A stretch of DNA of 49,652 nucleotides, taken from Methanobacteriota archaeon (lineage in GTDB: Archaea > Thermoplasmatota > Poseidoniia > Poseidoniales > Poseidoniaceae). Under the pieces are notes generated by a model that made no database searches, was not told the origin of the DNA, and was given only the letters and a program-made list of their open reading frames with translations. The first letter of the stretch is position 1. Every line of letters begins with the position of its first letter. A program made the position numbers and the translations under genes. Below, one piece after another: positions 36,599-44,558 of the stretch. The stretch spans positions 25,447 to 75,098 of the forward strand of contig PBKJ01000009.1 of the NCBI GenBank assembly GCA_002722135.1. Direction: 5' to 3'.

Positions 36599-36615
36599 CC
36601 CGCTGAATCAGCGGG
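36599..36615. terminator. 8-bp inverted repeat between convergent icd and PIN gene
   Basis: CCCGCTGA-A-TCAGCGGG, perfect, in the 37-bp convergent gap and including the stop codon of the minus-strand gene. Likely a shared, two-way terminator-like hairpin; no long T run on either side. Confidence 0.45.
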
Positions 36616-39600
36616 CAGACCATTGATTGAGGGTTTGTGCGTTCTTGATGACGCCGAAGCCGAGGTTCTCCAGCAACGAAGGTGCAACGAGGGTGAAGTC
36701 GCTGTCCCTGGTGGCGACCAGCACAGCGCCGAAATCTTCCAGTGGGATCTCTGCCAACCGCATCGCGAGGCACATGATTTCGCGGTCTTCCTTCTCGGGG
36801 TAGATGTCGCGGCTCGAGCCCAAGGAGGTGCGCTGCGGTTGACCGCGCAGTCGTTTCATGGCCGTGACCTCGTCGTACACGTCGCTGTGGCCGGCCAGGA
36901 AGGCGTCGAGCTTGGCCACACGTTCGTCCTCCATGGCCTCTGCATCGTAGCGCTCCTCCCGCTTGGTCCAGGTCTCGAAGGAAATCAGGACCTCGTTGAG
37001 GGCATCCTCAACGTTGGCTTCATCGAGGATGGCTTCGATGTCCTCTGGCGTGGCGAAGGTGTCATGCAGACGGTTTCGCAGCACGTTTCCACCCTTGGCA
37101 ATGGAGGTCAATTCATGCCGGACGGGCTCGGGGAGCATCAGTTGAACCTTCCCGGAGGCACCCAAACGCTCGAGGTGATGGTGCAGGTCGCGGTTGGCGT
37201 CGATGGCCAAACCTGCTCGCATGCTCCGGCCCGTGCGCTGAATCAGGCGGTCGAGGAGCGCGTCCACCAACACGTTGGTGTCCACCAAAATCAGTGGAGC
37301 CAGCTTCAGGTGGCGGAGGTGTCGCCGGTCCGCTACGGCGATGTGATCGCGCTTCATGATGAACAGCGAGCGCATGGAATTCTCGATCTGCCGCTGCTGC
37401 GTCAAGCGGAATTGCTTGGAGGACAGGGCCCGCTCGAGGAACATCAGTCCGGTGAGGGCGTGGTCGTCAGAAGCGCGGCGGGCGAGTTCGTACACCTCTT
37501 CAGGCGTGGGTGAACTGTCCATCAGTTGGGCGTAGCGTTGGTCGTGGTTCCGCCGATGGCTGCGACGCTGGCTCGAGAGGTTCTTGGCCGCCATCACCCG
37601 ACCGATGAAGGGATTCTTTGGCAGAGGGATCGCGTGAGCATCAGGATAGGCGAGGAGGATGTCGAGTTGATCCTCATTGTACCAGATGCGCGTACGCTCT
37701 CTCTCCTCGCCCTCATCGTTCTCTTCGATGACGACTTCTCGTTCTTTGACCGCTTCACGGATGATGTGCGTCGCATCGTCCGTCGCTCCGTTGTGCGCCG
37801 TGTGTGAAACGCGCAAGTACAGCAGGAAGCGTTCGGTCATGGCGGTCCTCAGTGCAGGTTCCTCATTCACCAGGTCGATGGCACGCTTCCATTCACCGGA
37901 AAACGCGTAGTGAATCAACGACTTGCGGTTGAGCGCCACGCGGTGCTCGAAGTCAAAGGCGAATTCGTTGTCCTCTGGCGCATCGACCGCCCCCTGCTGC
38001 TTTGCAGCCCGGCCGTATTCTTGGGCGGCGCGCAAGTGCTGGCCCTCTGAGGAGGCGAGGGCTGCGCGTGCAACCACGCTCCACGGAGAGCGGGGGTCGT
38101 GATCTTGGTACCACGCCACCAACGAGGGCAAGGAGAGGTCGTGGTCGAAGAGCAGCTGGCGGATGGCGTGAATGCGCCGGGTGGGAACGTTGTCCCCCCC
38201 AACCAAGCCGTCAATGAGCGAGACGGTTTTGGCGTTGAAGGTCCCGTTCTGCACCTGCTGGATGGCCGAGTTCAAGCGCAACGTGGCCGTGATGGCGTGT
38301 GCAAGCCCGTCGTCGATGGGGTTCAGGTTGCCTTCACCAAGCGCCTCTTCGAACTCATCGAGCACTTTGGCCTCAACCACCCCATCGCCACCTTCGAGCA
38401 AGGCACGGCGGATTTGTTTGTAGGCCAGAAGGCCCTGCTTGGTGTGCACAATGTCCTGGAACAAATCCTCGGGGGCATCACCGCCCTCGAGCAGTTGAAT
38501 CAAGGAGGCCGTCTTTGGCCCAAACGCAGCAGGAGGTGCGCGTTCATGGAGCAACGGGAGCAACGTTTGCCGGGCAGAGCGCACCCCATGATAGAGGTCG
38601 ATGTCCTTGCGAGCGGCCAACAAATGAGCGCACAAGGTCACCAACCACGGGTGGTGGTCAGCGTGGGCTCCTTCGATCAACAGACGAGAAAGGCGTCGGA
38701 TTTCTTGTCCTTCCAAAAGCACAGGGACGAGGCGTGCGACGTCCTCCTCAGCGAAGACGAATCCGCCGTCCTGAAGGCTCCGGAACGCGGTCATCCGAGG
38801 CAACGTGGGCAAGGCGTCGTGCAAGGCGATGTGCAAACGAGCGGGTGCTTCCATCCGCTCACAGACACCGGCCAACCAGTCCGTGGCTTCCACGGCATCG
38901 ATGCTGACGACAAGGTTGCCCAACGACACCGCGTCAACCTCGCCATCAACGGACAAGGACGTCAAGGATGCGATGGCGTCCGCCTGTTGACCTTCAGAGA
39001 CGAGCGCTCCGAGGTGCCACCAGCGCACACGGTCCACCACGGGACCGGGTGCGGAAGTCCCCTCGAGCAAGGCGAGTCCTTCCTGCAAGGTGCTGGCGTC
39101 AAGGTCCGCGGCCGATTCGTCCGGTTGCATCCACGCCAAGCGTTGGCGCATGCGGTCGAGGGACGTCTCGGTACCGGCAGCCCGACTGGTGTTCCAATCT
39201 GTGACTTCACCCGCCCGGAGGGAGGCCAAATCGCGATGCTTCGCCGCGAGGGTTTCGTCTTCGGCCGCAAGGGCGGCAAGAGAGGCCTCAGGCAGGGGTT
39301 GACCGAGGGATTGGGCCACCACCACGGCCACGGCGCTGAGTGAGCCCTCAAGCTCCAAGAGGGCCGGATCAAGGTTGATGCTTTTCCGCGCCTTCAGTTG
39401 GGGGACGAGGGTGTTGAGGGCGACTTTGGGTGCAGCGTCCACCACCAGGGGTTGAGCCGCGAGCACAAGAGCGAGGAGTTCCTCGCTGTCTTCGCCCGAA
39501 ATATCGGCCAACGCGAGATCCAGAGCGCCGTCGGCGGCCGCCACCTCGCTTGGTTCGGCTTCTGGGAAACCGGACATTTGAGCGAGCACGGGGCATCGGC

Positions 39601-40009
39601 GAGCAACGTCGGCCCACACCGGGTGAACGCCATCGGCCAGGCAGAGGTCGAGGCGCTCTTGCACCGCCGCATCGTGAGCCTCATCCCAAGCGTCTGCGTC
39701 GAGCGTCTTGCGTGCGGTCAGCACCGCGAATCCGAAGGCTGCAGAGAAGGTGTCGTCGTCCAAGACGTCCTCCACGTTCGGCAGGTGGTCCAAGGGGCTT
39801 CCAGAACTCCGACCACCGCGACGGCCACGGCGAGCACGCGCGCCACGGGGGGCGCGAGCAGGGAGAGATGGGCCGTCGTCTTCGTCCTCGTCGGCACCGG
39901 GTGCTTCCACCTCATGCAGGGCGAGAAGCAAGATGCCCTGCCACGGTTTCTGAAGGAGTTTGAACTCGTCTTGCCGGGTGGCCAGAGCCACGCGTTGAGG
40001 TGCCCGCAT
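36608..40009 (-). CDS. Giant protein with a C-terminal PIN nuclease domain
   Basis: 1133 residues. The first ~900 are a string of helices (Leu/Ala/Glu/Arg-rich) with an early acidic and Arg/Gly-rich disordered patch (EDEDDGPS, ARRGRRGGR, ~60-85). The last ~230 form a PIN-like domain: LILVDTNVLVDALLDRL (~905), a conserved acidic DREIMCLAMRLAEIP (~1073) and VLVATRDSDFTLVAPSLLENLGFGV (~1095). This is the acidic tetrad pattern of PIN ribonucleases. PIN proteins usually are ~130 residues. No toxin-antitoxin partner is adjacent. I read it as an RNA-processing or quality-control nuclease with a helical scaffold (inference). Confidence 0.85.
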   Translation of the reverse strand: MRAPQRVALATRQDEFKLLQKPWQGILLLALHEVEAPGADEDEDDGPSLPARAPRGARARRGRRGGRSSGSPLDHLPNVEDVLDDDTFSAAFGFAVLTARKTLDADAWDEAHDAAVQERLDLCLADGVHPVWADVARRCPVLAQMSGFPEAEPSEVAAADGALDLALADISGEDSEELLALVLAAQPLVVDAAPKVALNTLVPQLKARKSINLDPALLELEGSLSAVAVVVAQSLGQPLPEASLAALAAEDETLAAKHRDLASLRAGEVTDWNTSRAAGTETSLDRMRQRLAWMQPDESAADLDASTLQEGLALLEGTSAPGPVVDRVRWWHLGALVSEGQQADAIASLTSLSVDGEVDAVSLGNLVVSIDAVEATDWLAGVCERMEAPARLHIALHDALPTLPRMTAFRSLQDGGFVFAEEDVARLVPVLLEGQEIRRLSRLLIEGAHADHHPWLVTLCAHLLAARKDIDLYHGVRSARQTLLPLLHERAPPAAFGPKTASLIQLLEGGDAPEDLFQDIVHTKQGLLAYKQIRRALLEGGDGVVEAKVLDEFEEALGEGNLNPIDDGLAHAITATLRLNSAIQQVQNGTFNAKTVSLIDGLVGGDNVPTRRIHAIRQLLFDHDLSLPSLVAWYQDHDPRSPWSVVARAALASSEGQHLRAAQEYGRAAKQQGAVDAPEDNEFAFDFEHRVALNRKSLIHYAFSGEWKRAIDLVNEEPALRTAMTERFLLYLRVSHTAHNGATDDATHIIREAVKEREVVIEENDEGEERERTRIWYNEDQLDILLAYPDAHAIPLPKNPFIGRVMAAKNLSSQRRSHRRNHDQRYAQLMDSSPTPEEVYELARRASDDHALTGLMFLERALSSKQFRLTQQRQIENSMRSLFIMKRDHIAVADRRHLRHLKLAPLILVDTNVLVDALLDRLIQRTGRSMRAGLAIDANRDLHHHLERLGASGKVQLMLPEPVRHELTSIAKGGNVLRNRLHDTFATPEDIEAILDEANVEDALNEVLISFETWTKREERYDAEAMEDERVAKLDAFLAGHSDVYDEVTAMKRLRGQPQRTSLGSSRDIYPEKEDREIMCLAMRLAEIPLEDFGAVLVATRDSDFTLVAPSLLENLGFGVIKNAQTLNQWSAR

Positions 40010-40183
40010 CGGGCGACTGAAGCCCGATGAGAGGCAGGTGGCGAGGTACTGTTCTTGCAATCAGACACCCCCCGTGCGAACCGGCAAGGCTCGACGTCTT
40101 TCAATGCGTCGCCGTGCGGCACTTCCTGCCCGTTCCGGAACGAAAGGTCTTGAGGAGGGGCCGCGCCTCCACCACGGAGGGTC

Positions 40184-40654
40184 ATGGAGCCGTTGTCCAC
40201 CGCCCTCCTGTTGGTTCATCCCTTCCTTGCGCTGCTCATCGTGCTGTGGCTCGTTCGCCAACACGGTTGGCGCAAGGGCGGGGGGACGCTCAAAGGAGAA
40301 GCGCGCCGCGAAGCCCTCGCCGAGCACGTGCGAAGCGGCGAGCGCTTGTTGGTCGCCACGGTGGGCCTTGTGCTGGTGGCGGTGCTTGCTCGGGCTGCGG
40401 CAGGCTACATCGAAGAAGGACGAATCACGGCGATGCTGCTGCCGACCAACCTGCACGGGTGGACCGGGCCGCTTGGCTTGTGGGTGTTGTGGACCACGGT
40501 CCGAAACGGACGGCGGGCCTTGGCCGCCATGGAGAACAAGGAGAGCATTGTTGCTCCACGAACCCGTCACGGCCGAGCCGCTGACCTGATGTTGATCCTG
40601 GTTGGAATCCACGCCTTCCTTGGCTTCCTCTACACCTTCGCGGTGCTCTCCTGA
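40184..40654 (+). CDS. Four-helix membrane protein, unknown function
   Basis: 156 residues with about four membrane helices (ALLLVHPFLALLIVLWLV, LLVATVGLVLVAVLARAA, GPLGLWVLWTTV, LILVGIHAFLGFLYTFAVL). His residues in the first and last helices (VHPF, GIHAFLGF) recall cytochrome-b-type or DUF4079 proteins, but I do not claim haem binding. The ATG follows GGAGGGTC, a strong site. The gene is divergent from the PIN gene over 174 bp, the longest gene-free gap in the window, in which I see no clear motif. Confidence 0.75.
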   Translation: MEPLSTALLLVHPFLALLIVLWLVRQHGWRKGGGTLKGEARREALAEHVRSGERLLVATVGLVLVAVLARAAAGYIEEGRITAMLLPTNLHGWTGPLGLWVLWTTVRNGRRALAAMENKESIVAPRTRHGRAADLMLILVGIHAFLGFLYTFAVLS

Positions 40655-43062: not shown

Positions 43063-44067
43063 CGCCAACTCGGGCAACGTTGCCCAGAGGGCAAGCCACT
43101 GAGCCAGGTTCCGCTCCACGTCTTCCGCCTCGACGGGCCGGTCTTCTGCAGCCCCTGTGGCGTCGATGGCCTGAATCCTGCAACCGCAGGCGTTGGCATG
43201 ACCGCCCCCCGTTTCATCGAGCAGCGTGGCCAGCCGAGAAAGGTCCACCCGCCGACGGCCTTCGTAGAAGGAATTCGCGTAGAAGCTCGCCGACAAGGGC
43301 GGCCGATCGTCGCGTTCCACGGCGCCGTCCACGTGACCGTGGATGACGCAGCACGCATCTGCATCAGCGCCAACGTGAGCGGTCACCAAGTACCCGCTGG
43401 CACGTTGTGGCAATCCCTCCATCCTGCAAATGGCCAGACGATCGACCACGGTGGTCCGTGCGTGGACGGCCTCGAACGCGGCTTGCCGGTCTTGAGCGGC
43501 TGCCGCCAAACGCGTGGCCACTTCGGGGTCCTCGACAAGGGCCCTCTCGTCCGCACCCGACACCAACAAGCCCAGGACATGGTGCATGAATTCAGCCTGT
43601 GAGGTGCCTAGGCACCGCGCAAGCCGCACCAGCGGGCCATCGGCCAGGAACACCTCGCGCTCGATGCCCCCTGAATCGATGGCGTCCACGAAAGGCATCA
43701 GCTTCGCCAGATGCTGAAGATCGCTGAACGGGGCCACGAGGTTGTGGGCCACTCGGGCTGCGGATGGCTCCGCGGCCCAATCCAACCGCCCACCGGCCGC
43801 TTCGAAGGCAGCGGCAGCGTCCTCGTCTGGACGGTTGGTCAAGTGGTGGTCGACGTACCACCCACACGCGGGGTGAAAGGGGAGATCGACGATGACGGTC
43901 CCCCGGTCAATGACGTCGTCAAGGTGCCCGCTTCGCACCAAAGCAGGGTGAGCGAACACCACCTCCGTCCTTGGAAGGGCACGTTGGAGGATGGCAGCGG
44001 CGCAGAGCCCGTCGAGGTCCGCATCCGCCACGATGCGATGAACCTCAGGAAACGGGCCCTGTTCCAT
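43060..44067 (-). CDS. DHH-family phosphoesterase
   Basis: 335 residues. The DHH family metal motifs are visible: DADLDGLCAA (15-24), a DLPFHP block, WYVDHHL (~74-80) and the C-terminal DHHA1 motif GGGHANACGCRI (~292). By family this is a manganese-dependent phosphoesterase acting on oligonucleotides, nucleotides or cyclic dinucleotides; the exact substrate is unclear (RecJ-like, NrnA-like or a linear-dinucleotide hydrolase). The start is taken at 44067; ATG 44094 would add nine residues. It is divergent from the Nudix gene over 80 bp. Confidence 0.85.
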   Translation of the reverse strand: MEQGPFPEVHRIVADADLDGLCAAAILQRALPRTEVVFAHPALVRSGHLDDVIDRGTVIVDLPFHPACGWYVDHHLTNRPDEDAAAAFEAAGGRLDWAAEPSAARVAHNLVAPFSDLQHLAKLMPFVDAIDSGGIEREVFLADGPLVRLARCLGTSQAEFMHHVLGLLVSGADERALVEDPEVATRLAAAAQDRQAAFEAVHARTTVVDRLAICRMEGLPQRASGYLVTAHVGADADACCVIHGHVDGAVERDDRPPLSASFYANSFYEGRRRVDLSRLATLLDETGGGHANACGCRIQAIDATGAAEDRPVEAEDVERNLAQWLALWATLPELA

Positions 44068-44147
44068 GCTCGACCCCGGTGGCCGGGAGGCCATCAACGT
44101 GCCGCGAGGGCAGCAAAGGCCATCAGGACCTCGTGGGTGGACGCTGC

Positions 44148-44558
44148 ATGGAGACCTCATGCGGCGTGGTGTTGGTGAACCTCGGCGCCGTCTTGCTCCT
44201 CCAGTACCCGCAAGGGCACTGGGATTTTCCGAAGGGCCACGTCGAAGCCAGCGATGCTGGACACAAAGGCACCGTGCGACGCGAACTCAAGGAGGAAACT
44301 GGAATCCTCGACATCGCCTTCGTGGAGGGATTCCAGGAGCGCACCACCTACAGCTACACCCACAAGGGCCGTTTGATTGAGAAAGAGGTGCACTGGTACT
44401 TGGCCGAAACCGAGACGCTGGACGTGATGTTGTCCCACGAGCACCGAGGTCACCTCTGGCTTGACTGGGACGCGGCTGCGGATCAATTGACCCACGAGGC
44501 TGGCCTTGGGGTGCTGCTGGCCGCCAAAGCACACATGCAGCGCCTTGGCCGGGATTGA
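44148..44558 (+). CDS. Nudix hydrolase, Ap4A-hydrolase-like
   Basis: 136 residues. A Nudix box is present around GHVEASDAGHKGTVRRELKE and EETGI, with the catalytic helix RRELKEETG intact. It has one more residue than the standard 23-residue box, and Asp or Ala where the first conserved Glu is expected. GHWDFPKGH and the C-terminal LSHEHRGHLWLDWDAA resemble diadenosine tetraphosphate hydrolases (NUDT2 type). It probably hydrolyses a dinucleoside polyphosphate. The start has no clear ribosome site. Confidence 0.85.
   Translation: METSCGVVLVNLGAVLLLQYPQGHWDFPKGHVEASDAGHKGTVRRELKEETGILDIAFVEGFQERTTYSYTHKGRLIEKEVHWYLAETETLDVMLSHEHRGHLWLDWDAAADQLTHEAGLGVLLAAKAHMQRLGRD

Follow-up and report, generated by a model that had tools for sequence, protein, structure and literature searches.

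Genomes of the Poseidoniales encode a large protein, here called the solenoid-PIN protein, in which a predicted alpha-helical solenoid of about 900 residues is followed by a C-terminal domain of the PIN superfamily. On balance, this protein is reasonably likely to be a chromosomal, non-essential endoribonuclease that is passed on vertically and uses its solenoid to choose substrates or partners. It would serve cell maintenance rather than act as a toxin or in defence against viruses. Its gene was analysed in a stretch of 49,652 nucleotides (the window) that belongs to the 1.94 Mb draft genome of a Poseidoniales archaeon, whose relatives with names are Candidatus Poseidoniales and Poseidoniaceae. 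The individual parts, a PIN nuclease and an alpha solenoid, are known; their combination and size lie outside the family libraries searched. Scans of the window protein and of 41 family members with the Pfam, NCBIfam, and PADLOC models found none that covers the protein. The possibility that it would turn out to be a common housekeeping family of known role was thus not borne out in these libraries, which hold no described family for it.

The gene occupies positions 36608 to 40060 of the minus strand, with its stop codon at 36608-36610. Judged by sequence comparison, translation probably starts at the TTG at 40060 and not at the ATG at 40009, because homologues conserve residues upstream of this ATG (MQEQYLATCL); close relatives at loci L003, L005, L066, and L067 carry an ATG at the position of the TTG. 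The predicted product is 1,150 amino acids long, and residues are numbered here according to this form. An earlier note on this DNA described a protein of 1133 residues at 36608-40009. Its open reading frame on the minus strand stands, as the homologues and the substitution rates attest, but its length is replaced by 1,150 residues through the TTG start. The dN/dS ratio over the whole gene is 0.06-0.07 between close relatives, indicating strong purifying selection, and the lowest values fall mostly in both ends of the PIN domain. Full-length homologues occur across one order, with identities to the window protein down to about 24%.

The PIN-superfamily domain spans residues 916-1150 (36611 to 37315, minus strand) and is supported by two alignments (A1 and A2), a profile-profile match to stand-alone PIN proteins, and the predicted fold. 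Five acidic residues (D927, E983, D1092, D1119, and D1121) are invariant in all 41 members, even at identities as low as 24% to the window protein. They form the acidic series of PIN domains, D...E...D...D(xD), which opens with D927-T928-N929, and the predicted helices and strands follow one another as expected for this fold. The motifs VDTNVLVDALL, DREIMCL, and ATRDSDF, from which the earlier note had recognized a C-terminal PIN domain, are all present and contribute D927, D1092, and D1119 with D1121. The recognition is upheld by the invariance of the acidic positions, which that note had treated as one of the points on which its reading could fail, as well as by the profile match described below and the predicted order of strands and helices.

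Within the domain, a mostly helical insertion at residues 991-1085 (36806 to 37090, minus strand) separates the second acidic position from the third. The insertion is evident in the predicted structure and is the least conserved part of the domain. When the family was aligned by hhalign to 24 stand-alone PIN proteins from other Thermoplasmatota, the unmasked profile reached a probability of 57% and matched over the first half only. With the insertion masked, the probability rose to 91-93.5%, with E-values down to 2.3e-7 over 91-108 columns, and the first two acidic motifs as well as the last fell in register with those of the stand-alone proteins. Ten column-shuffled controls gave at most 0.7%, and windows taken from the solenoid at most 0.5%, except for one window that already contained the DTN motif. 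The domain is therefore statistically related to known PIN domains at the level of sequence once the insertion is masked. Single-sequence searches are consistent with this, yielding weak Pfam matches to PIN in 14 of the 41 members and to PIN_12 in ten, and in one genome the PIN_12 match spans all 172 positions (E 8e-4). The full-length window protein has no PIN match in Pfam, and its C-terminal part falls under the Pfam PIN cut-off (14.4 against 23.6 bits). A profile comparison with one single PIN_12 protein found no relation, and phmmer and profile searches of PDB sequences returned chance matches only, none of them a PIN protein. A separate model of the domain is confident (pLDDT 87); among the 50 PDB matches listed by Foldseek for it there is no PIN structure (best E 0.55), perhaps due to the helical insertion, and the PIN topology is read solely from the sequence of strands and helices in the model.

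PIN-like domains may be FEN-type DNA nucleases or inactive, and the PIN-like superfamily includes the FEN/XPG nucleases. A DNA-directed, structure-specific repair nuclease of the FEN-like branch would be in keeping with the presence of RadA a few genes away in the window. RadA, however, lies several genes off and outside the displayed neighbourhood of most loci, and the motifs (VDTN, a single E, D, and T-R-D-S-D-F) align with VapC-type PIN proteins, which makes a repair nuclease a most improbable identity. Little more probable is a scaffold, structural or regulatory, whose PIN-like domain has ceased to cut and acts as a binding module. Such a protein exists in SMG5, a solenoid protein whose inactive PIN domain aids an active partner (PMC12923823). 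An inactive domain would nevertheless be expected to lose some of its catalytic acids, yet all 41 diverged members retain every one of them, and the acid-bearing ends of the domain are among the most conserved parts; we regard this scaffold reading as very unlikely.

The solenoid accounts for residues 1-915 (37316 to 40060, minus strand). An AlphaFold2 model of the whole protein, built with 41 homologues (mean pLDDT 83, pTM 0.63), predicts this region to be almost entirely helical, in agreement with the roughly 900 residues of helices noted from the sequence, and structure prediction of the N-terminal 900 residues, proposed earlier as a check, finds a solenoid of paired helices. The predicted tandem antiparallel helix pairs are of regular length, as in alpha solenoids of the TPR/PPR/HEAT class, and begin every 31-35 residues between residues 339 and 471, a modelled spacing like that of TPR, PPR, or HAT solenoids. 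A beta hairpin is predicted inside the solenoid at residues 772-794, and conservation within the solenoid peaks at residues 701-750 of the 41-member alignment. Foldseek searches with the whole model return superhelical proteins only, including CTR9, PPR10, SKI3, IFT-A, and importins, at low TM-scores; for the predicted model, these matches inform on the class of fold and not on any closer kinship. The same model has no match below 1e-3 among viral structures. Near the N-terminus, a disordered loop at residues 57-86 (39803 to 39892, minus strand; pLDDT below 50) holds a stretch that varies among the aligned members and is often acidic, and after it a basic RR(G)GR core, in which R81 is present in 41 of 41 members and R80 in 40. 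The Arg/Gly-rich patch remarked upon earlier is real, with a conserved core.

Genomic context was compared across the window and 40 further loci. The gene is usually flanked on both sides by genes of the opposite strand, the upstream neighbour being divergent and the downstream neighbour convergent, and because of this arrangement it appears to be transcribed alone. The window and 34 of the 40 further loci have a small membrane protein as the upstream neighbour, which in the window lies at 40184-40654 on the plus strand. It resembles DUF4079 and cytochrome b561 proteins, and is tied to the solenoid-PIN gene by position. Four histidines of this protein (H12, H48, H91, and H129) are invariant across 13 relatives. 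Since these histidines are invariant and members match the DUF4079 and cytochrome b561 models of Pfam, it is probably a b-type haem protein. The downstream gene is isocitrate dehydrogenase or one of a few others, and further neighbours encode DHH-type phosphoesterase-like, NUDIX, cobalamin adenosyltransferase-like, and OsmC proteins. In the window, the DHH-type phosphoesterase-like protein (43063-44160, minus strand) carries the motif DADLDGL and is conserved in the block, this particular member having no Pfam match. An MMPL-family membrane transporter (PF03176; 40699-43059, plus strand in the window) accompanies the PIN gene at close range, in either orientation, at 12 of the 41 loci and lies outside the displayed block elsewhere.

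Nothing resembling an antitoxin or a defence island was found among these neighbours. As the earlier note had stated for this locus, no antitoxin gene is adjacent: the upstream gene is divergent, the downstream gene convergent, and neither is an antitoxin-sized gene in operon position. The wider neighbourhood survey that it proposed shows a lone gene at a fixed place among metabolic genes. A VapBC toxin-antitoxin system is rejected on the size of the protein, 1,150 amino acids, and on the opposite-strand neighbours present on both sides in nearly all loci. Proteins of the VapC-type PIN (PF01850) and PIN_12 (PF16289) families share the acidic motif set and its register, and give the best of the weak Pfam matches, but most VapC-type proteins stand alone, measure about 130 residues, and usually come with an antitoxin, whereas the PIN domain here is fused to a scaffold, is enlarged by an insertion, and lacks an antitoxin. 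The general PIN model (PF01850) finds matches in only one of 14 sampled Poseidoniales genomes, while most other sampled Thermoplasmatota carry one or more. There is therefore no expansion of toxins in the Poseidoniales of which the solenoid-PIN protein would be an obvious leftover, and it and Nob1 may be the main PIN proteins left in these genomes.

A 41-row profile detects the solenoid-PIN protein in 117 of the 128 Poseidoniales genomes of a phylum-wide sample, in both families of the order, and the protein is present in 51 of 59 genomes in a set of near genomes. It is normally encoded in single copy; in a few genomes the gene is split over contigs or frames, or accompanied by a second fragment. 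The same profile matches none of the 262 other sampled Thermoplasmatota genomes, including those of the other order of the same class. Beyond the Thermoplasmatota, the search comprised a close-relative scan of GTDB contigs and the family libraries; within the searches made, the family is specific to Poseidoniales, and a distant relative elsewhere is possible. The literature searched contained no text linking Poseidoniales with a PIN domain. One survey describes 199 protein families as consistently tied to Poseidoniales, and its modules 32 and 71 are protein family modules specific to that order (PMC9258230). The solenoid-PIN family may be one of these 199, listed without a function; neither a PIN domain nor a nuclease is mentioned in the survey's main text.

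Eleven of the 128 Poseidoniales genomes lack a match. Three of these are incomplete, and the other eight belong to two genera (g4 and g14) in which no sampled genome matches. In two g14 genomes the block is intact and the gene is absent, the gap between its usual neighbours being 2 bases at locus L144 and about 50 at L142. Because a single gene is cleanly absent, it is not essential there. Pairwise identities of the solenoid-PIN protein track those of the neighbouring genes (Spearman rho 0.54-0.78), a pattern that vertical inheritance would produce, and the gene keeps a fixed chromosomal place.

These observations bear on antiviral defence, in which the solenoid would sense infection and the PIN domain would degrade RNA so that viral growth stops. 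The layout of a large sensor joined to a nuclease suits such a role, PIN nucleases are known in defence and toxin systems, and the absence from two genera recalls the frequent loss of dispensable defence genes. Against it, the gene is nearly universal in its order, is fixed between metabolic genes, and has identities that track those of its neighbours. PADLOC assigns no family to the window protein and gives one or two stray weak matches among the 41 members, none of them consistent; the neighbours give only weak PADLOC matches, as expected of a NUDIX protein and of a RadA-type ATPase. Neither tblastn searches of phage and plasmid records nor the scanning of viral contigs yielded a solenoid-PIN match. 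Defence is accordingly considered unlikely. The earlier proposal of a large nuclease for RNA quality control or defence, equipped with a scaffold or sensor region, is thereby narrowed: the scaffolded nuclease is retained on the strength of the structural model, the invariant acids, and the profiles, and the defence part is disfavoured in view of vertical inheritance, near order-wide presence, the fixed locus, and the lack of matches in the phage, plasmid, and viral collections.

A role in the maturation of tRNA or rRNA, as a protein-only RNase P (PRORP-like) or a Nob1-like enzyme, could also explain a chromosomal PIN protein joined to helical repeats. PRORP combines helical repeats with a PIN-like metallonuclease in the same order, and PPR10 appears among the generic Foldseek matches; HARP likewise joins a PIN domain to helices. 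The solenoid-PIN protein is, however, far larger than either, matches no family model, and coexists with RNase P RNA (RF00373), which is found in 23 of the 24 genomes tested, both with and without the solenoid-PIN gene. Nob1 (PIN_6, PF17146) is also an archaeal RNA nuclease of the PIN superfamily, but is encoded in the same genomes by a separate gene of about 190 residues. Of 21 genomes, 18 have it, genomes without the solenoid-PIN gene among them, and the genome of the window (G000) has its own 191-amino acid copy. Because RNase P RNA and a separate Nob1 occur irrespective of the gene, the solenoid-PIN protein is neither the main RNase P nor the nuclease of the 16S rRNA 3'-end, and both identities are rejected. 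Some other maturation role is quite unlikely. A precedent for a non-essential archaeal PIN nuclease kept beside an RNA-based RNase P is provided by HARP (PMC8266387).

In architecture, the protein resembles SMG6 (EST1A), the endonuclease of metazoan nonsense-mediated decay, in which TPR-like helices with extended loops come first and a PIN domain containing four acidic residues forms the C-terminus, giving the same order of parts (PMC12923823). No sequence relation to SMG6 was detected in the PDB searches, and no SMG6 chain is among the sequence or fold matches that they listed. The two also differ in construction: the solenoid here extends over about 900 residues, whereas SMG6 has a 14-3-3-like domain plus helical hairpins, and the solenoid-PIN protein is archaeal, carries a large helical insertion in its PIN domain, and is without known partners of the UPF1 type. 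The shared layout was probably reached by convergence. A bolder and rather unlikely extension of this comparison would cast the protein as the archaeal counterpart of SMG6: a surveillance endonuclease complete in itself, whose giant solenoid recruits specific transcripts or ribosome-bound complexes to the PIN site, and an invention of the Poseidoniales independent of the RNA decay machinery common to other archaea.

For the vertically inherited endoribonuclease favoured here, a mechanism can be outlined. By analogy with PIN biology, the acidic pocket formed by D927, E983, D1092, and D1119/D1121 would coordinate metal and cleave single-stranded RNA. The solenoid of about 900 residues and the RR(G)GR loop would hold RNA or a partner protein and so decide the target, and the nuclease would be restrained by its own scaffold instead of an antitoxin. 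Only the layout of the protein suggests this selection of substrates or partners, along with a function in the processing or decay of cellular RNA; RNA processing or quality control would be compatible with such a nuclease.

The Poseidoniales (Marine Group II) are abundant archaea of the surface ocean of which no isolate is in culture, and little work has been done on their RNA metabolism. A probable nuclease that is nearly universal in the order, strongly conserved, and covered by no family model offers a concrete target for the unexplored part of archaeal RNA decay, and its natural losses in two genera provide a ready contrast in the search for its substrates.
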